Shown piece by piece: positions 6,555 to 39,775 of a stretch of DNA of 64,000 nucleotides. The stretch covers positions 21,317,501 through 21,381,500 of the forward strand of contig OX485805.1 in assembly GCA_950295325.1 (NCBI GenBank), written 5' to 3'. Both the position numbers and the translations under genes were made by a program. Every line of letters begins with the position of its first letter. The first letter of the stretch is position 1. Under the pieces are notes generated by a model, which made no database searches, was not told where the DNA came from, and saw only the letters and a program-made list of their open reading frames with translations. Source of the DNA: Polytrichum commune (taxonomy: Eukaryota; Streptophyta; Polytrichopsida; Polytrichales; Polytrichaceae).

Positions 6555-9500
6555 TTATGATCTATAATCCAGATGTTTGTAGACGATGGAGTTCAGTCGT
6601 TCACCAAACACTTGCCTCGAGAAGTTTTCCTCGACATGCTGTCGAGCCTGCTTTCCCATGGTTTTAGCCCCCTCTGTGTCCTGAAGCAAAAGGGACATTG
6701 CAGACGCAAAGCTTGGAGGAGATGGTTCACACAAGTACCCTGTTCTACCATGTTGAATGCTCTCCACAGGTCCTCCACTTCTGCAAGCCACTACAGGCTT
6801 ATGGGCAGCCATCGCCTCCAGGGGCACAATTCCAAAGTGCTCATTCTGTATCAAACAAGAAATCAGCGAATCAATAGAGATATCCATAAAGTAACCTTGT
6901 GTTTCAAGGAAAACCTGACCCTTCACAAAATCTTCACAGGGGTTAAACCCAGCCTTGCTAGATTCCTACAAAAATAACCCTAAGGAATCCAGTAAGAAGA
7001 AACAAGGATTGTGAAGGAGAGAGAGCATGTACTGTTGGGGTGTAGATGACACAGATGCAAGCCGCTAGTAGAGCATTTCTCTGTGCTGTAGAGCAAGAAG
7101 GTAGAAACACCACTTGCTGTGCAACTCCCTCCTCCATAGCTAAATTCTTGAGGTCTTGTAAATACTCCTGATTCTCTCTCAACCGATGATCATAACCCCC
7201 TGGAGTTTCCCCAACACGATGACAAAACATGTTATAAACTACTTCCACTTGCTACAAATCAATAAAATTGGATGTTTATCACTTGCCAATCAGTGCAGGC
7301 CAAACTAAGAAACACCAGTAGCCCAAACCTGCAACTGCCAAGCGAACATTCATGCGCTCTGGAACTGAATTCTCCTGTTGTCTCATGAGTAACGCAAAGG
7401 CTGATATTGCAAGGGCTATATTCTTCTTCTTCTCAAACCTGTTGATTGACAGGAAAAGGTGCCTGAAGGAGATACAACACAAAAATCAGTCCTGAATGCC
7501 TCTTAATGCCGCTTTCAATAAATCCACTCCTGGTGAACAGATTGACTAGAACATGAATGAGAAGAGTAACAACTTAACAACATTGTCCCAGGTAAGGAAA
7601 ATTGCGCCATATGTTTTGTGATTGTTGTGTCTTCTGGCAATAACCCCAAAACATCATCAGCTCTTTCTCGCAGTTGTGTCTGCTCTCTAACACTCCAAGC
7701 AACTGAGAAAAACAAGCCATCTCCATCAAGCTTTACAAGCATGCTGAGAGATGGATACGAATATGTATAGATAGATAGATAGATAGATAGATGGGCCTGC
7801 ACTGATTGGCATATGGAATTCAAATAAGATATACTTTGGTGTGTTGGAATCCCATGTCAACTGCTAACAAGAATCATTAAAACCTTTTCTTTAATCTAAT
7901 GATAGTATGTATACTCAGCGCTCAATTTAGCACCCTCTACCTCATGTGAACAACAAAGGAGCTCACCCATTGGCTGCAAGGCCACCTATGCCTGTAACAT
8001 CAACGTTCTGAGCAGGAGCATCAAACTGATGAACATCAACCGCAGGATAAAGTACAGCTGGCTTGAGGCCTCGAGCTTCAAGCCTTGTGAATGTGGAGGC
8101 AAATGTAGCAGCAGTGAATTGGCTATTGACCAACACACAATCCGCCATTCCTGCATCATTGTTAAGCCCTCAATGCTTTTAGCATGGTCATACCAATTTT
8201 GTATTCTCTCTTTATACTGGATTATATATATTCTTCATCAAATTCATTCCAAGTCACTTTCTGTGGATGTTGAAGAGTGTAACCTTCCAAGACTGTTAGC
8301 TATCACTATTCATCACTTTGTATTTCTGCATTCTACAATTCCAAAATACTGAATATATGAGAGGCCCAAATCGGGCTCCAAAAGTGTTTCAGGGTTGAAC
8401 TCATCAGCACCACTCACCAAAAGAATGAGGAATTTACGATCTTGATTAAGTCCAGTCTGGACTAATACTTGAGACCAATGGATGTTACTACTCATGGATG
8501 CCATGTGGTGGCACCAAAGATTAATCTCAATCAGAGGGTCACAAATATGACACTCTACACTCATTCTCCATCTAGACTAAATCCAAGGATCCAGTGTAGT
8601 TCATTCTCATATTAGAAGGTATCCCCAGATGCCAGAGTAAGGAATGTTATCAGAGATTGCAGAAATCCAGGCACTTACTAAACATCTATCCAATGCGCTA
8701 GAGAACGAATACCTTGTTACTGTTAGAAATTTTGAAAATGGGAAGGCAAACTCCACACACAGAAAGATGACAGATGCAAGTTGGAAGTATCCAGGTTTAC
8801 TGCAACTATCCACACACAAAGGTCCTAATCCAAACTATACGCCTGCAAATAACAAAAACTTCACCAAAGATGATTCCATCACGCATGCAATAGAGGTTGT
8901 CAGAAGTGCCATTCCCTACTAAATTTGTAATTTATCGCCAGCTAATATAGGAATGAAATGGAACACCTACCAGTGGTTGTTTCCTCAATCCAGTTGAGAG
9001 GTGCCCGGTAGAGTCTACGCAGTCGTGTGGTGTGCTGAGCAAGCAACATGTCCGGAAAGTGGCAGTAAAACAAGACCTGCAAAATGAAAAAACAAAACCA
9101 TATTTGTTACTGAAGTAGCTTCAAATCTGCAAAACTATTAAGCAAACATGAAGCACATAACCTAAAAATGTCATCAAAGACAAAATTACAAATTCCGTTA
9201 GCAATTGATAACAATTAATCCTATGAGTGCGAAACACGTCTTATCTCTCAGAACCTTACCTTTGATCCTCTCTTCAGTTTGAGGACAGGGATCACAGCTG
9301 AGACTTGGTCAGCAAAGACAACATCAAATGTTGGCCAAAAGAGGATCATGCACAATGCCACATAGGTGCAGCGTATGTATGCACAGAGAGCATGCAACCG
9401 GTTGAAAATGTGTCGAGGTAGAAAGTCACCATAAACTGTGACAGGAAAAGTCCCTGCAATAGCCAGGCGGTTTTGATAGCTCAAGTGAATCTGGCTGGAA

Positions 9501-20100: not shown

Positions 20101-23100
20101 GTACTTTGCAATAATTGCCTAAGTATTTGCCATATTGAAATTTGAGGAGTTTCATGATTAGTGCGCTGGTAATCCAGGGGGCATCCCAAAATAAGTTGGA
20201 TCATTTAAGATGGAGGTCGGGGTTGGAGAGCCATTTGTTGACGTAGGGGATTGTGTTTTGTGCATGCAATATGAGTGCGCTTTCATGTTATTTTTCAATT
20301 TATCTTTCGGTTGCAAACATATCCATATTGTTGTGTAGAAGTTGGGGGGATTGACAACCATAACATGGCTTGGTGACCAATGAGATGGAAGGGAGTGGTC
20401 ATGATACGTGTCTCATCTGCTCCATTTTCAACTTGTTTGTAACCTATGCTTTGTCATTTCCAAATATGTTTGTGTGGGCTCTAACTTTACAAACGATGAT
20501 TTTGTGTTGAGTTTTTTTTATTATGTCAACTACATGAGCTAGAAAGAGTTTGTCATGGTGGTTGTGATGGGAGAGGGGTCCTGGATGTGATTGAGGAGGA
20601 GGTGCATGCTATTTAGGCTATATGTGAAGATGAATGTGTTTATGGAGAGTAAGTTGGTATACTTCGTGGCGAGTAATATTGTGTATAGTTTAGCTCAGAG
20701 AATATTTGGGTGTACATGAAGACGTGCAACTATATGTGTTTGTGATGGACCACTGAACACAATGGATCTTGTGATATTCCTGATGCCGTCCATATAGTAT
20801 GATTGGTTAGGTGGGTAGCGTAGAGGAAGGATGTTTGTTACCAATGGGGGGAGAGGAGGGGTGTGAGTGGGTGGGGTGCAGTTGGAAGGGGTTGGGCTAC
20901 ATACCATGTTTCGGGGGTTTTGGTGGGTGGTATGTTTGCATAAGGTGAGGGTGTGGTGGAGTAGGTGAATCATGTGCAAAAGAAGTGCAGTGGGGAGTTT
21001 TTGTAGGAAGGAAGGAATTTGTGGTGGGTTGGTGGTGTGGGAGTATTAGGATAGTGGTGAGTATGGGCTCTTTATATTGTTGTAGTATGTAGGCAGGGTT
21101 GGGGAGGCAATATATTGCATAGTCAAGGGTGGGATGGTGACTATGGGAGTGGCACTAGTTTGTGAAAGTGGGTTAATTTTGTGATTTAATCAATTGTCAT
21201 GAGTGATGGTGATTATTGTGGTGGAGTTGTGATTGGTGTAAGCAACGGCTCTAGTCCGTCTTAAGATTTTGGGGAGGAGGTCAAGATTTGTTACAAGGGC
21301 GTATTTGTGTCCATTCCATTGAGTAGAGAAGGGTGGGCCCAGGGCGCCAAAGACTATGTCTCTTTTATGTGGGGAGTGATATTGTGCAAGGAGTGTGGGG
21401 CATGTGACCGGGCTAGAAAAGTATTGTCATCCCAACTTACTTTTAGTTCATCCAAAATGCCAATTATTGAGTCAAAGTTTGGTGTATTCTGCATCCTAAC
21501 ATTCTTGTAATAAAATATTGTCAAGGATGATTGAAAATTGGATGAAAAATCACTTAGTAAGTGACAATGATTGCAACATTGTAAATTCATAATGCCCAAA
21601 TTGCTTTCCAAGGATTTTAGTGCTAGGTTTATGACAAATAATATTAGGTTTGCATTTAGTGTTGGTGACACTACAGGTGTGGTTTACAATCAGTATTGAG
21701 CAAGACAAATAGACTTGGTGACACTAGATATAGTGTTTAGTGTAGCGTTCTCCGTAGGTTTGTATCATACCTCGATTATGGGTTGGGGATTTGTGGCACT
21801 CAAGTAAAGTCATCCGGTAACAAAAATTGGATGAGTGCATCAAGAAGCTCGGATGAAGCTTACTTTAGTGAAACGCCTCCGAGTTGGCATGTAAGACCTA
21901 TTTTCTCCCTCATAGCTATTATGAACTACTAGCTATTTTGTAAATATCAATTAGTTGGCAAGGGGCAATGATGTGGCCTTGGATGCTCTAAGCTTATTTT
22001 CTAACCTCCCATGAGTTGTTTCCAAGGCCATGATGTGGCTTTGACTTCCACATGGTTATTTTTATAAATACCACAAGATATCAACGTGTGCAACATATAA
22101 TTATGATGTGTTGTCATAGACATTTTTTGTTCATAATTCATTTATTTTGCACGGGTGTGATTGCTCAGACATTTGTAATATGTAAAAATAATATATATGG
22201 ACTTATGGTAAATTGGTGAACTCAAAAATAAATTCAATATGATTATTATTATTATATAAATTTTATTTTAAAATAATTAATATATACCATTTGATTTAAA
22301 GATAATACAATATGTGATGAGGATAAAATATTACAATATTTCATATAGGCTATAGTTAGAAATTTATGATTTTATGAGTATACCCCATCCATAACGTTGT
22401 CCCACAAGTCTAATTCCAAATAACATACCATTTATTTATACCTCATATTATATTACCTAAAAAATTTGATTTTTATATAAATTTTTGGTGTATGTTTTAT
22501 ATTCTACGTTCATTGTTTCATTTTGGTCATCTTATGAACACTTGCACTAATCTATCATTAGGATGACAAAGATAATTTTAAATGGTAAGTCACAAAATTA
22601 TAACCTCAATGTTAATGAGGATTTTGTAATGTTTTTGACCTCCAAGTTAATTACGTGCTTCATTGATGGTTTCACTTCCGAAATGAAATCCCAATCAATT
22701 GCTTATTTACTAATTGGAAGTACACATATATATATTGGATTCTAGACCTTGAAGGTGAAGTGCACTCAATATGGGATTTGTAGTCAAGCGGCCTTCAAGA
22801 ATGCAAGGGCAATGTTTTTTTTCGAAGTTGGGCGGTATGGGCAACAATTTTCGATCGAGTTCAGATTTTTCTTTAGAGGGTTGCCCTAGCCTGGATTTGA
22901 CACCCCCGACAGTTCGGGAGGGGGTATTTAATGTCCGCCCATATTAATTTCTTAAAAATAATTGGACTAGTAATCATAGGTTGGCAACGCATGATGCACC
23001 CACTTGTTTCTATATGAGGCATTTTTATTTTCTCTAACCCCCTTTGTATTATTGCCTTAATAATTAGATTAGACTAGGATTATTTAGAACTACTAAAACT

Positions 23101-23640
23101 TGGTATTTTGGAAACCCTTGAGACAAGAAGCCGATGATGTGAGGTAACGTCTAAAGTGGTTCATCTCATCTGCAAAGATGAATGAACTCTCACTAATGAA
23201 AATACACGAGTGCCTCGAATCCCTGGCCTCGAATCTGCATATCATCTGTCTCGAAACTGCAGATAACAAGCCCGTAAGAAATAAAAAGTTTCTCAAGGGG
23301 TTTTCAGAGACTTTACAGATAAACTCTATAATTTAAAGCAATTTCCATGGGGAAAAGATTATGCACATCATTTAGGACTTGGTGGACAAATTAATGGCGC
23401 ATTTGACATTTTGTGAGTGAGTTGGATGTGCTAGATGTGTAAACTCTAAACTTGGGGTGGAGGACATAAGCTCTTCCCAGTGCAAATGACCACAGATTTG
23501 GAAGGAGGTCTAACATGGCCAGGTGAAATTGCTACCGAGTTTGCATGTACATGAAGGTGGGAAGCAAGATGTGTGACAGTGTTGAAGTTAGAGTTGAAGA
23601 AGAGTATTAAAGCAAGATGGGAATGCGGGAGAGGATTTGG
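17186..23640. other. Gene-free stretch, strand-skewed and AT-rich parts
   Basis: No exon chain or protein family could be recognised. From about 19500 to 21250 the plus strand is strongly G+T rich. From about 22140 to 22560 the DNA is very AT-rich. Open frames such as those at 21354-21671 (minus) and 22563-22745 (plus) lack motifs and splice partners. Confidence 0.45.
20845..20897 (+). other. G-run tract with quadruplex potential
   Basis: At least five runs of three to six G occur within about 50 bases, separated by short loops, on the plus strand. Confidence 0.55.
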
Positions 23641-24384
23641 CAATGGGTGCAAAAAACGGCAGAAGTTTACATGGATGGGCTCCCTCGGAAGGCTTTCATC
23701 ACCTCCCTCACCAACTGCCTAAAGTAAATATCTGCATTTCTTGGAGTCATAAATTCTTTCCCACAATTTTGGTGTAATTTACCGTTGAGTTAAGATGTGT
23801 ATGTTGTGATATTCCCAATGTAGCAGGAATTGGAAGCAATGTGGGTAAGGATACCTCATACTGTTTCTCTTTCGATTGGTGAATAATAGACACACTTTCT
23901 GTCGATGGGATCTCATTAGGGGTTTTGCATAATCTCCATTAAAGCTTCCTCTATTTTGATACATTGGGTCAGATTGTAGATGAATGTGCATGTATGAGTA
24001 GTGGCAATTGGAAGCAAAAGCAATGTGGAAAGGTTCAGATTTCTTCTCATAGCATTTCAAGGTTGGTGAGATTTGCAGAATTTGTTCTTCTTCCTGGGAT
24101 TTTGATGGGTTTTAGGGTTTATTGCAAAGAGCCATGTGTTGTGCCCAATTGGGATGGGTCGTCACAAATGAACTCTTCACTCCAAGTCCTATAAAAAAAC
24201 ATATACTTGCGAGATTTCGGTACTCGTCGTTGGGGTTAGAATGTGAATGTGGATGTCAAGGATTGGAAGTAAAAACTAAGTTCTCTCATTCTTCTTGGTC
24301 ATCATTTTTCTTGAGTTTTATGAGGAGCACAATGTCATCGTGTCAGTGGGTTTTTTGCATTTAAGATGCGCATCGTGCTACGCC

Positions 24385-24785
24385 CAATTAGGATAAGGTA
24401 AGTGGACCTTCAAAAATACACTTTTTCCAATAAGCTCACTTCTCTTACGAAATGAAACACACAATTAGTACGAACAAGATGATCAGCAAATTCCAAATTG
24501 AAACCGTGCCCATTTTCCTTAAAAATTTAGAGCCCAAGTGAATATCATTCACTATCAGACTTAAGTATATTTTTCTGCTCAAATGATCATACCCTCCCCT
24601 CCTCCCCCAACCCTAATTGTGTTGACTATTGAGCTTAGAATAGTTAATAAGTTTTGAGCACGGAGTCCAATCTCTTTTTGAACACATGTCTTTTGGGCGG
24701 CGGTTCTTAGATCCACACCTACCCACCCACCACTAAAAATGTAGGTGTCCGATTATGATAAGTGACTGAATAAGGCCCACTGAGC
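24385..24785 (-). repeat. Interspersed repeat R1, full-length copy
   Basis: Read on the minus strand this matches the other R1 copies from their start (GGGCCTTATTCAGTCACTTATC, with GGACACCTA and AAAAGACATGTGTT) to their end (GTCCACTTACCTTAT). At about 400 bp it is one of the most complete copies. Confidence 0.75.
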
Positions 24786-25990
24786 TTATGTCATTTGCAC
24801 CAAGGTTGCATTTTTTCACACATGAGTTAAGTGGAGCAGAGAATATCCACAGCTATGTGGGAGGGAAGAGCTTGTGGTCCGGAGGATCGAGGAGTTAGCT
24901 GAATTGGGTGTGCAGCGACACTCGAATTTTGCTGTTGACAGTCGAGCCTCCACACACCTGCAAGTGAGTGAATTCTGCTCAATGTTTTTGTTCACTTGTG
25001 ATATTTCATCTCAAAATGCAATTGACCAATGTTAAATGTTGAGTCTGTGTCGTTACATAAGGTAGATGGGCCTTATTTGGTTGCTTTTTGTTGTGTGCTG
25101 CCTTATACTACTCGGATTTGTGAGGTTAAAATTTCTGTGCCTCCACAAATTCATCTGAAGAAGCCAAGTTCGATCCCAGATAGTTTTGGAGCTAATCTGG
25201 AATTGTCATGAATTATCAAATTCCACTGACAGGGAGCCATAAGAAGGCCACACAGGTCCCCCCACTTATGCTGACTATTGAGCCTAGAATGGCTAACAAA
25301 TTGAGCTCGTAGTCCAACCTCTTTTAATTTCATGTCTTTTATGGTGTCCGTTCTGAGGTCTGCACCTAATCACCCACAACACATACATAGGTGTCCGATC
25401 AAAGTGAGTTACTGAAATAGGCCTGCCAACCCTATGTTTGGTAGGCATTGAATCAAATTTGCCGTTTGATGTGATAGAATCAATGTGCATGAAATTAGTG
25501 TCAATGAAAAATGGATCATGAGGTTTGCAATGTGATGTATGGCATGTGCATTGATTGATTGATATCTGTGCATTTATCTGCAAAAAGGTAGGTTGTCTGG
25601 TGCAAGTTTTATCGTTCACTTTTGATGTTTCATCTCAAAATGTAACAGCCGAATCTTTAATATTGAGTCACTGTCGTTACACACCATTCAGGATTTGATA
25701 TCTTCAAAGTGCTAATTCATCATGTATCTACCGATTTTTTCAACATGGATTCAACTCACATTCTATACTTTTTAAGATCTTGCAATAGAAACACAAGATT
25801 AAAAGTGATGCCAATTCTATATTAGGTATACTTTGATTCAGTGTTGTAGTTCGATGTGATTGAATCAATGTGGAATCGGTGTTGATGATATATGGATCTA
25901 GAGGTTTGTGATATGATGTATGGTATGTGCATTGACTGATTGACCCTCCCTGCACATTTGTTTGTGAAAAAGGTAGCTTGTCTGGTGCAA
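24600..25990. repeat. Diverged tandem duplication next to the thiazoline-hydrolase exons
   Basis: Several blocks recur about 380-670 bp apart. One block reads TCACTT-TGAT-TTTCATCTCAAAATG. Another reads TGATGTATGG-ATGTGCATTGA and leads to GGTAG-TTGTCTGGTGCAAG, near 25450-25605 and again near 25840-25991. The second copy ends exactly where the hydrolase-like coding sequence starts. R1 copies on the minus strand lie inside each unit. Confidence 0.6.
25266..25425 (-). repeat. Interspersed repeat R1, partial copy
   Basis: It carries the first part of R1 on the minus strand, including CACCTATGTATG, the AAAAGACATGAA block and AGGCTCAATAGTC. A short plus-strand R1 start also lies at 25058-25080. Confidence 0.65.
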
Positions 25991-27516
25991 GGGACATACG
26001 AAACACTGCTGCCTTGGTTCAAAAACGATTACGAGAAAGTGATCGAAATCGTGAGAAAGCCAGTTGGTGCTAGCACCGCCGGGGCCGTCGGACTTGCGCA
26101 AAGAATTGCTTTGTACTTGAGCTATGACAAGTTCCGGCTCGTGTCAAAGGGTTTGAAACACATGGAGGCCGACTTTGGCAAGTCGTTTCTCGTCGAGCAC
26201 CACGAAGAGCCCGGGTAGAGTCCCTTGCATCCCTCTCATGTAAGAGGACCTGGGGGGTAACTTCCTTGAAGGGATATGAACCTCATGTGATAAAGGGGTA
26301 AAATTAGGAGGGTTATGAAGTAATGCACATATTCATGAGATGTTCCATATATTTAATGAGTATTCTTGGAATGTACCTAATATATATTCTTAATTGAATT
26401 TCTAAGACATTATATTTATATAAGTGTTTTGTAAATTTTACTCCTTTGGAGATTATTTCACCCTATATTTACAAAGAGTGACATCCCCCGGTGGAGGTAT
26501 CCTTTCAGCTCAAAGGGACTTGTCGGGAGGTGGTCTGCTATGTTTTAACATTCAAGTTTTGCATACAAAACTTAAAAAATTCTATCCACTTGTGGTGCAT
26601 GCTTGGAAGTAGTGTTGTTTGATTCAAATGAAGAGCAACCTATTTCGGTTCATTGAGGGCCAAACTCACTTTAGCACAATAGCACCCTTTGACATGTCAA
26701 AATGAGTTTGACCCTCAATGAACCAATACAGAATGTTCTTTGTTCGCACCTCCCCACTACCACCGAACATGGAGGGTTTTGTATGCAAAACAACCAACTC
26801 CCTTCCAAAAGTCACGTTGAGTCAATGTATATCCTCTAATGTAGGGTGGTGATACACAATGCACCAATCTAGTGGAAGATGAAAGCTGAAAGCATGACTA
26901 AAAATGTCGATTCTGAGAAGTCCAGTGTTGCAATCAATTGTTGTTATTTAATCAATTTAGATTTGACCAAATGTAAAGTTTCCTGGTGGCTCTGATAGTT
27001 TTACTTTCCTTTCCTTTGTGTGTAGTTTGCACAGAGCAAAGGTCCGTCGGTGTCTCTACCATTCTGTCTTCACAGCTGAAGGCAATCCAGAGCTCACACC
27101 CATCTTCTGTGCTCTCGACAGCATGTGGTACGTTGTTGCCGAACCGTTTTTTCCTTACCATGACCACAAATACCCACTCCCTTGCATGGAAGTTGACCCT
27201 TTGTGTTTGGTGACCTGTGCTTGATCTTTCAATTTAGCAATAATGGAGGAGCTTCAATTCTTGAGGTAGGACATCCTAGATGCATTATAGATGCATCTGC
27301 CTTCTCAGAGAAAACCATGAATTTTTAAGCATTTCGCCTTATTTGAACGGTGACCATGAACTATTTCTTTCCTGTAGGTTTGATCAATTGCAACCACAAA
27401 AACATGGAGTCGAGTTCCGACGTCCCACTACACTCGCGAGAGGAGATCCTTTGTGTGATTTTATTCTGCAAAAGGTACCAAGACAAAGGATAAGTCGAGG
27501 GGCAGCTCCTTTTTAG
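25973..27516 (+). CDS. L-2-amino-thiazoline-4-carboxylate hydrolase-like protein, at least three exons
   Basis: Exons are 25973-26214 (or from 25992), 27026-27127 and 27378-27516, stop included. Junctions are GG|GTAGAG, TGTAG|T, TG|GTACGT and TGTAG|G, and the frame is kept through all of them, giving about 160 aa. The last two exons read VRRCLYHSVF, GNPELTPIFCALDSMWF and FRRPTTLARGDPLCDF. This fits the ATC-hydrolase family pattern of a Cys-containing middle block, then F-x-R-x-x-T-L-A-x-G-x-x-x-C-D-F near the C-terminus. In bacteria the named member opens the thiazoline ring of ATC towards cysteine; other members have unknown roles. Exon one is more GC-rich than its surroundings. The true start is not settled: Met at 25940 is in frame, or a further exon lies upstream, for example 23643-23723, which is open, ends at GTAAAT and is in the right phase. 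No signal peptide or membrane segment is visible in the part found. The reaction is inferred from family similarity only. Confidence 0.6.
26558..26791. mobile_element. Fold-back element inside the hydrolase-like gene's first intron
   Basis: GTTTTGCATACAAAAC near 26558 has its exact inverse GTTTTGTATGCAAAAC near 26776. Further inward, GGTTCATTGAGGG is matched by CCCTCAATGAACC, and CAAACTCA by TGAGTTTG. The arms are about 100 bp with a short spacer. No coding sequence and no clear target duplication were found. Confidence 0.6.
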
Positions 27517-37900: not shown

Positions 37901-38834
37901 CCAACGATCGCATCTGCAACATAAAAATGAATCTTATTCTCTACATGAACTTCAACAAGAAATAATATTTTGAATTGCCAAACTCTGGCCACATCTTCAT
38001 ACTTTCATGACTTTTAGAACATGAAACAAGTCAATTACAAGAATTAGAGTCAACAGCAATCCATCCTGGCACAAAAGATTGAAAATGGTGGATAGATTGC
38101 ACTAAATTTGATAGTAAATGTTATGCAAACGGAGGTTATCAATAATTTTGTCAATAAACCTCAAGAACTCAAGGAGAAAAATTACAGCAATTGCCAATGT
38201 CACACTGCCTACATTCTTTTAGAGTTTTGAGCTGACCTAAGACAATACTCACTAAACACTTTGCAACTGGCAGTAGAGAGCAAATGATCACCTTCTATAA
38301 CTACCAACAATATCTACATTAAGTGGCATACGCTGTACTGAATATTCTGTATGTAGTACAAGATGGATCTTACCCACTTCCTTATATCCTTAAATAAGTG
38401 ATATTTGATATAGAGTGTTATCATAAGAGCTGACCCATGCAAGAATGTATGTAATACATGGTGAATGTCTGTGAGCTGAAAAATATCTGATTATGGATAC
38501 TCACTTGCTTGTAAGAGCCACCATTTCCAGGAATGAAGAGAACAGGAACTCCGGACAATTTCACGAGATGAAGCTGGTAATCAATCTTCTTCCATCCTTC
38601 GTGGTAGAGAAACAGAGAATATTTGTTATTAGTGCCGTTCAGAGGCGGAGGGAGAGGAATGTAAGTGGGGTACATGTACGTCATAATACATCCTTTTAAC
38701 AGTGGTTTGTGGAACCCTAACAACCCTGCTGCTGTAATAGATGCTGCAAACACGATTGCCAAAAACAGCCTGTAATTGCACCATGATGCCCCTGCGGCCC
38801 CCATTTCCTTCTCTAATAATATTTTATTCTTCAC
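28921..38834 (-). CDS. PGAP1: GPI inositol-deacylase, PGAP1/BST1 type, 18 exons
   Basis: Exons are 38834-38505, 37913-37644, 37175-36988, 36291-36147, 35714-35577, 35383-35194, 35042-34810, 34571-34401, 34041-33931, 33492-33373, 33095-32939, 32548-32385, 32082-31996, 31782-31454, 31172-31091, 30727-30588, 30006-29787 and 29262-28921. The model is 1138 aa, close to plant homologues. PGAP1 removes the acyl chain from GPI inositol in the ER. The N-terminal membrane anchor (about residues 18-45) precedes YMYPTYIPL and LFIPGNGGSYKQ. The lipase nucleophile is Ser232 in ILVGHSMGGF. Downstream blocks LDWFAVDLEGEHSAMDG, SLDGIVPP, EHQSILWCNQL and SGVLRLSP are conserved. From about residue 769 the protein is strongly hydrophobic with several membrane spans, ending in the basic, His-rich RRHSHTHRH. 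Met at 38804 is an equally possible start (1128 aa). The last intron contains an R1 repeat. All key residues are intact. Confidence 0.95.
29350..29675 (+). repeat. Interspersed repeat R1 inside the last PGAP1 intron
   Basis: It shares the blocks AACACCCAAAAGACACATG, TTCTAGGTTCAATAGGACC, ATATGATCATTCAAG, CACTTTGATAATG-ATAAG and TGCCCACTTACCTTG with the other copies. It lies between the last two PGAP1 exons, antisense to the gene. Confidence 0.75.
34138..34233 (-). other. Possible 96-nt cassette exon in PGAP1
   Basis: Inside the intron between exons 34571-34401 and 34041-33931, a 96-nt open block is bounded by GTGCAG| and |GTTAAG. It is phase 0 at both ends, so inclusion would add 32 residues without shifting the frame. 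The protein reads naturally without it (GPTQHQ then TEPGGQTEQ, as in relatives), so it is left out of the main model. Confidence 0.4.
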
Positions 38835-39775
38835 TAGGTTTCCTATTCTAGATCCCTTGTGATGAGCTCCACGAAGGCATCTTCATCATACTCCCATCGA
38901 TGGACATAGCCTCGCCTTCATTCGATTGTCAAAATAACCGTCCATCTCCATGTCCCATTTCAATATACCCCAATGGCAGCACATGTGGGAAGTCAATACA
39001 AAGCCATTTCATGTCAAAGGCCTTTTTCTCAAGAAATACACACACATTTTTATGTCCGCTGTATCATCACCCACCTGCCTATATCTATAATCCAAACCTC
39101 GAGAGACTAAAGTATGTAAGGAAACATCAGATCAGTTCCAAAACTGTTGGCGTGTACCTATGAAACCCTACCCTCGCCAAAACGTCCAAAGTCTACCTCG
39201 GATTCAAAGCATGCTTTTGAACGTGAGATAATGTCATTCTCCAGAGTGGGAGATTAAATCACAAAAATCTTATCTCCACAAAAATTAAAACCTCTCCGCC
39301 TACCGCAGACAACACGAGATCTACAGCGCAAAAACCTTCGAATCCTCCCCTTTCCTCCTTGCGTCAATCGCATTCTGAGTAGCTCCTGTCGACCTGATCC
39401 CGTATAATAACCAGAGTAAAAAAGATAAAAGATGAATACAAGAAAGAAATTTAAAATAAAATAAGCTGTTTGAGAACTGGTGACCGATGTCGCGAATGGA
39501 CACAAGGGGATCCAGCTCCACACTCAATCATTCATCGACGATAATATGGCACCGGAAGCACCATTGTGAGTAGAACTAATAAAAAATAATAAAAACTGGA
39601 AAAGCATAAGAATGTATCTGTGAAGAAGTGGAGACTCGGAGGCTGTTGGTGTGGGGGAGGCGATTGTCTACGAAAATGTGGACGCCATCGCAAAAGCCAT
39701 TGGAGCTCCCTCGACACAGATAGCTGAAGCTTCAGTCCGCCATAGCTGGACCTCTGGGAGGAGCCTGGCCGGGCC
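38835..39775. other. Upstream region of PGAP1
   Basis: Presumed 5' leader and promoter of PGAP1. No TATA box or exon could be assigned with confidence. An open frame at 39254-39527 (minus) has no family motif. Confidence 0.4.

Follow-up and report, generated by a model that had tools for sequence, protein, structure and literature searches.

A predicted five-exon plant gene of the ATC_hydrolase family groups with rare stand-alone actinobacterial genes, apart from the branch of ATC-pathway-like operons

The window, the 64,000-base stretch of DNA analyzed here, probably contains a functional five-exon nuclear plant gene (we put the probability at roughly 0.6), found once in its genome, whose predicted 237-residue product belongs to PF14196 (ATC_hydrolase) and shares a branch with a rare stand-alone actinobacterial gene, distinct from the branch that holds ATC-pathway-like operons. 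If active, the gene would offer a plant entry point to an enzyme branch whose substrate we found nowhere described. Because its branch is separate from the pathway-operon branch, the gene also cautions that not every PF14196 protein should be named ATC hydrolase.

Results

The Plant Gene Model Comprises Five Predicted Exons

The window was placed at C3:21317501-21381500 of a 407.8-Mb assembly of 64 contigs. The gene model consists of the following exons (slashes in splice sites mark exon boundaries):

23617..23723, + strand: exon 1, with the proposed ATG; 35 codons plus 2 bases; donor AAA/GTAAAT; low confidence
24840..24963, + strand: exon 2; donor CAA/GTGAGT; moderately supported
25973..26214, + strand: exon 3 (exon one of the initial annotation); GT-AG junction, Pfam and profile match
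27026..27127, + strand: exon 4, with C167, C186, D189 and the ELTP block; profile E-value of 2.8e-10 alone; Pfam match
27378..27516, + strand: exon 5, with the F-x-R-x-x-T-L-A-x-G-x-x-x-C-D-F block, including C218, and the stop codon; profile E-value of 3.5e-4 alone; Pfam match

The initial annotation had described exons 3-5 as a three-exon gene, and their coordinates stand: when joined, these exons contain no internal stop, end in the C-terminal block that it had named, and terminate at a stop codon at 27514-27516. The donors are CGG/GTAGAG after 26214 and GTG/GTACGT after 27127, and the acceptors are GTGTGTAG/TTT before 27026 and TTCCTGTAG/GTT before 27378. Position 25973, which it had taken as the start, is instead an internal acceptor, and the bacterial relatives begin about 75 residues ahead of the first residue of the three-exon protein.

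In the region 22900-25972, 485 splice-compatible candidates for an upstream exon were each joined to exon 3 and scored with a profile, and the best of them all represent one stretch, ending at 24963 or 24967. Addition of exon 2 through the junction 24963/25973 raised the score from 86.1 to 95.0 bits, while the alternative junction 24967/25977, which gives a product of equal length with one residue changed (A to T), raised it from 85.6 to 96.7 bits. The profile score does not fix the exact exon 2/exon 3 boundary, and we preferred 24963/25973 because of its GTGAGT donor. The maxima in 34 control regions of equal size (mean of 668 candidates each) ranged from 88.8 to 97.9 bits, and three of these (97.5-97.9 bits) outscored exon 2; therefore, exon 2 is likely, without the score alone being proof. 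Across the first 48 kb, 1.8% of same-size segments reach its GC content of 0.52, and the exon contains the VD-x-x-A block seen in the branch described below. Because exon 2 contains no in-frame Met, a further exon is required upstream. The proposed exon 1 has a frame that is open from its ATG, a phase compatible with exon 2 and a GC content of 0.51, and it changes the profile score by approximately zero; the ATG at 23617 is probably the gene start.

The resulting model contains 714 coding bases including the stop codon, encodes 237 residues and has no earlier stop. Its four GT-AG introns measure 1116, 1009, 811 and 250 bases, and two of them are strongly supported. Coding GC is 0.51, compared with 0.38-0.41 in the introns; exon 3, at 0.52, is indeed richer in GC, as had been remarked for it at the outset. 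GC by codon position is uneven from exon to exon and follows no single pattern.

Two repeats lie in intron 2:

25240..25440, + strand: one copy of a dispersed repeat that is about 190 bases long and frequent in the genome
25424..25606, + strand: diverged copy (76% identical) of 25809-25991, a local duplication

The local copy duplicates the exon 3 acceptor together with the first 19 bases of exon 3 into the intron, and the duplicated acceptor is a possible decoy splice site. The dispersed repeat has at least 40 matches elsewhere in the genome, 40 being the number scored among 1993 rough candidates.

The Gene Resides in a Plant Nuclear Genome

The LEAFY domain (PF01698), which to our knowledge is confined to plants, was found at four places in the assembly, all above cut-off, and in none of 14 control genomes. 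Because the genome carries this domain and the controls lack it, the host is a plant. The LEAFY and dispersed-repeat matches listed are confined to seven contigs (C1 to C7), a number compatible with a plant of seven chromosomes; contig C3, which harbors the window, extends over at least 36 Mb. The gene thus has predicted GT-AG introns on a large contig of a LEAFY-bearing genome, as a plant nuclear gene should, and lies 11 kb from a host exon. We therefore concur with the earlier proposal that it is a host gene with spliceosomal introns, the introns being predicted.

The neighboring host exon, at 38424-38882 on the minus strand, is PGAP1-like and belongs to an ordinary host gene, as does a group 1 glycosyltransferase exon at 6558-6965, also on the minus strand. 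Elsewhere in the window, between 15000 and 22000, the GC skew rises from −0.37 to +0.46 in the space of 6 kb. A large inverted repeat was considered as the source of this swing, and none of at least 60 bases was found there.

The Encoded Protein Belongs to PF14196

Searched against Pfam, exons 3-5 together with 11 upstream codons matched PF14196 with an E-value of 5.2e-15 and 56.9 bits, twice the curated cut-off of 28.1 bits, which upholds the assignment to the ATC-hydrolase family made in the initial annotation. The five-exon protein is likewise over the cut-off, at 56.0 bits. Up to an E-value of 10, the plant protein matched no second Pfam family and no NCBIfam entry. A further profile was built from 15 actinobacterial relatives with the plant sequence excluded, the relatives themselves having been found with the plant sequence. 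Among the 2885 stop-to-stop ORFs of the window, this profile placed the same three exons as the top three, in order and on one strand; alone, 27026-27127 and 27378-27516 scored as listed above, and 25973-26214 gave an E-value of 0.027, below the inclusion threshold.

The plant protein also contains the three cysteines and the R-x-x-T-x-x-x-G-x-x-x-C-x-F block (C167, C186, D189, R207, T210, G214, C218 and F220), a residue pattern that is our own reading of a 24-row alignment and from which distant members differ in part. All eight residues are identical in the 24 rows. More distant PF14196 members, such as L024, L025 and L033, deviate at some of these core residues, so the core does not define the whole family. 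Taken at the level of sequence, membership in PF14196 is firm. Genome searches with the family profile and with the protein recovered only this locus, though, as they were run exon by exon, weak copies may be missed.

The plant protein keeps 32 of the 53 alignment columns that are invariant in the 15 bacterial relatives. Among the 158 variable columns, it agrees with the bacterial majority at 32. Invariant columns are thus retained three times more often than variable ones, because of which the plant gene is probably under selection.

The Plant Protein Shares a Branch with Actinobacterial Proteins

The 24-row alignment and tree contain the plant protein, 15 members of the actinobacterial branch and eight others (L019, L020, L022, L044 and four plasmid loci, the latter opened out of 85 matched records, 40 of which were listed). 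The family ORFs of the loci were picked by profile, replacing a motif filter that had kept 5 of 20 loci. An earlier tree was built from 10 of the 17 loci that yielded a family ORF among 23 screened; it omitted L021, which is the same gene as L004, and L023, L026, L033, L034, L035 and L038, which are near copies or weak, and the six loci without a family ORF match (L030, L031, L032, L036, L037 and L043) are absent from it.

Scores of the plant protein lie at 56-87 bits with the 15 actinobacterial members and at 1-17 bits with the eight others. Consistent with these scores, the 24-row tree joins the plant and actinobacterial proteins with support of 98/99 and the other branch with 98/99, and in the earlier tree, which held other distant rows, the plant and the actinobacteria were joined with 92/79. 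The actinobacteria without the plant were supported at 94/91 in the earlier tree and 67/82 in the 24-row tree, and on these sequences the plant may be either the sister of the actinobacteria or nested among them. The branch leading to the plant is long, at 1.61 and 2.41 changes per column, which carries a risk of long-branch joins, and the sample is thin, so the exact place of the plant is unsure. If the canonical L-ATC hydrolase branch is taken to be the one with racemase/hydrolase/M20 loci, the plant protein falls outside it, with support of 98/99 for both branches in the 24-row tree, which contained no assayed ATC hydrolase. By sequence, the branch of the plant gene is separate from that holding the pathway-like operons.

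Residue-level features follow the same division. A three-residue insertion after a conserved proline is common to the plant and the actinobacterial branch, and one residue is missing before the second Cys in both, and also in L022. The signature of the actinobacterial branch, composed of YH (or FH) after the first Cys, the ELTP block, C-x-x-D-x-x-W and the TT block, is present in the plant as Y169, H170, E180-P183, C186, D189, W192 and T209-T210. H170, E180 and W192 occur in the plant's branch, and rows of the other branch carry different residues at these positions.

The relatives are rare. Two degenerate peptides were used to scan 84,980 prokaryote species and gave 120 pattern matches, 13 of them confirmed and all 13 actinobacterial; as the patterns were derived from plant and actinobacterial sequences, the scan is biased toward these. 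The class to which a Nocardiopsis belongs was represented by 394 genomes, of which five gave a match to the plant protein with E ≤0.01; three of the five were strong, at 73-83 bits, and two of these three came from already known genomes. Of 296 genomes from one phylum, that of Nocardiopsis, 48 had PF14196 itself above cut-off. The bacterial distribution is thus patchy, both for the family across the phylum and for strong matches to the plant protein across the class (3/394). Two scans of viral contigs for relatives gave 9 and 46 pattern matches, none confirmed, and for a bacterial branch member no match was found in phages. Plasmid matches in Sinorhizobium and Ensifer (E-values of 1-8) were rejected; at two of three loci they lie inside unrelated reading frames.

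The Other Branch Contains Pathway-Like Operons

Conversion of DL-ATC to cysteine proceeds in three steps, by ATC racemase, L-ATC hydrolase and S-carbamyl-cysteine amidohydrolase, as outlined in an excerpt of PMC10821248. Searching a plasmid collection with L020, a member of the other branch, returned 85 records, 61 of which are from Sinorhizobium, Azospirillum or Ensifer. On S. meliloti pSymA (L049 5040-7733), genes for a racemase, an ATC hydrolase and an M20 hydrolase are consecutive; the M20 gene would correspond to the S-carbamyl-cysteine amidohydrolase, and the trio possibly represents the complete DL-ATC to cysteine pathway. The arrangement varies among the other loci. In Pseudosulfitobacter an M20 gene adjoins and there is no racemase; in Martelella an ABC transporter lies upstream, preceded by a racemase gene, with no M20 gene in the stretch; and in Paroceanicella the M20 gene is almost 5 kb off, with opposite-strand genes intervening. 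An adjoining M20 gene is therefore found in two of the four loci opened and an adjoining racemase in one. Among the 15 actinobacterial genes, within the flanks examined, no conserved neighbor is common between genera, and the surroundings thus hint at no substrate.

The initial annotation had raised a role for the plant gene in the metabolism of sulfur or cysteine derivatives. As worded, this is unsupported, given that the plant protein lies outside the branch with the pathway-like operons, and that it hydrolyzes ATC can be inferred only weakly from its sequence.

A Candidate RNA Hairpin Precedes the Actinobacterial Genes

All 15 actinobacterial relatives (L002-L016) carry a 42-base leader segment, beginning 57-141 bases ahead of the start codon, with the consensus GTCAGCGCC-n-GGTnGGTnGGTGGAGYGCGCTGGC (for example, at about 2629-2670 of L008). 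It would form an eight-pair hairpin with an 18-base G-rich loop. Covariation was examined in 13 distinct copies, with L014 and L016 omitted as having the same segment as L012 and L015 and two copies entered one base shorter at the 5′ end. In this set, 98.1% of cells pair and three of the eight pairs are changed on both sides. None of the 500 shuffles and none of the slid versions reached the covariation score; the count of further pair types is unremarkable, being reached by 200 of 500 shuffles. Folded alone, the segments form the stem in 14 of 15 cases, the exception being L011. Of six genomes searched for the motif, three contain it a single time, directly upstream of this gene. It was not found in the other three; two of these, L004 and L006, show a gap of one base within it, and the third is G604. 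No Rfam family matched at gathering scores across the 15 loci, and one locus had no match near the gathering score. The motif does not occur in the plant window. These features make the hairpin a candidate for an RNA that regulates the stand-alone actinobacterial genes.

Fold Comparisons Yield Weak Matches

According to an excerpt of PMC5847659, the MetOD1 domain is related to the HNOB, V4R and PF14196 domains, and MetOD1, V4R and ATC hydrolase have a three-Cys cluster. The plant protein, however, has no Pfam match to MetOD1 (PF18546), V4R (PF02830) or HNOB (PF07700) up to an E-value of 10. MetOD1 was a weak second Pfam match in all three bacterial relatives scanned, with E-values of 0.024-0.35, under the cut-off. 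A search by sequence for a solved structure gave a best E-value of only 0.29. A structure model was made of the bacterial relative L009 (mean pLDDT of 79.6). Its Foldseek matches were weak, the best being a cellulose-synthase subunit with an E-value of 0.02, and in VIA the best match was a designed protein with a Z-score of 6.4, with unrelated proteins among the rows. Bet3 and H-NOX chains appear in both of these weak match lists.

Discussion

We propose that the plant protein would be an enzyme in which the three cysteines and the aspartate form one site, containing either a bound metal or a Cys nucleophile, and in which this site would hydrolyze a C-S or C-N bond in a small ring compound. 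Our leading candidate for the substrate would be a thiazoline or cysteine-cyanide adduct that is related to ATC and perhaps not ATC itself. H170, E180 and W192 would set a different specificity, and we favor a different substrate because rows of the other branch have other residues at these positions. The plant lineage would probably have acquired the gene from a microbe in the distant past, and an old horizontal transfer is plausible in that it fits the patchy bacterial distribution. In its full form, the proposal is tentative: plants and a few actinobacteria would have a separate enzyme branch with distinct active-site residues that acts on a substrate of its own, either a ring derived from cysteine or cyanide or a cyclic amide, and the plant lineage would have acquired it by ancient horizontal transfer and retained it as a stable, intron-bearing, single-copy gene.

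In another reading, the plant protein would be a true L-ATC hydrolase. 2-Aminothiazoline-4-carboxylate arises when cyanide meets cystine, and plants produce cyanide during ethylene synthesis. The enzyme would open this ring to carbamoyl-cysteine, from which a plant amidohydrolase of the M20 kind would free cysteine, thereby detoxifying cyanide and recycling sulfur. The shared Pfam family and Cys-Asp-Arg core of the pathway-operon rows speak for it, as does the pathway itself, described in an excerpt of PMC10821248. Yet the scores of 1-17 bits to the other branch, against 56-87 bits to its own, and the supported separation in the tree make this identity unlikely, and the 15 actinobacterial loci have no neighbor common between genera, as opposed to the racemase and M20 genes in S. 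meliloti and the M20 gene in Pseudosulfitobacter. We consider it improbable that the protein is a ligand-binding or sensor protein, which, like V4R- or H-NOX-like relatives that bind ligands without catalysis, kept the fold and not the chemistry. Such a role would be in line with the MetOD1-HNOB-V4R-PF14196 relation (excerpt of PMC5847659), the presence of Bet3 and H-NOX among the weak fold matches, and the MetOD1 match below cut-off, although this last was seen in the three bacterial relatives and not in the plant protein, which is moreover a stand-alone protein with no other Pfam domain and retains the core common to the pathway-like branch.

As to origin, the gene could be an old eukaryotic one that was kept in this plant lineage by vertical descent and lost in many others. 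Such a history would agree with the lack of a close match among the bacterial relatives found, whose identity to the plant protein is 24-31% across the full alignment and at most 37% in the best segment, and introns and GC unlike those of the bacterial genes point to long residence. It remains a doubtful account, as the family is patchy even among bacteria and the 13 relatives confirmed among 84,980 species are all actinobacterial, a scan whose patterns came from plant and actinobacterial sequences. Least probable is a decaying or unexpressed remnant: intron 2 has repeats and a putative decoy acceptor, and 21 of 53 bacterial invariants are altered, but the 714 coding bases contain no stop before the last codon and invariant residues were kept three times more often than variable ones. 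We thus return to a functional plant gene of a separate branch as the preferred reading. In a literature search on the ATC hydrolase family, no plant member was described among the matches listed. Automatic annotation of plant proteomes may already list such proteins, and fungal PF14196 members probably exist.

Comparison with Known Systems

One set of close known counterparts consists of the stand-alone actinobacterial PF14196 genes of Nocardiopsis, Nonomuraea, Crossiella, Nocardia and others, whose products belong to the same branch as the plant protein and are similar in length, with 24-31% identity over 200-223 aligned residues and at most 37% in the best segment. Unlike the plant gene, these have no introns and a GC3 of 0.77-0.96 (at the 14 of 15 loci where the gene ORF was chosen), and they are preceded by the leader hairpin, the motif of which is absent from the plant window. 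The other branch is represented by WKL33306.1 of S. meliloti pSymA, annotated as L-ATC hydrolase and encoded between an aspartate/glutamate-family racemase and an M20 metallo-hydrolase. Its members are shorter, with 161-175 residues compared with 237 in the plant, and the four plasmid members score 1-7 bits against the plant protein. Around the second Cys, the other branch has LSCNRDG where the plant has ELTPIFCALD. Nevertheless, the other branch and the plant protein are alike in their C-terminal core of three Cys, Asp, Arg, Thr, Gly and Phe.
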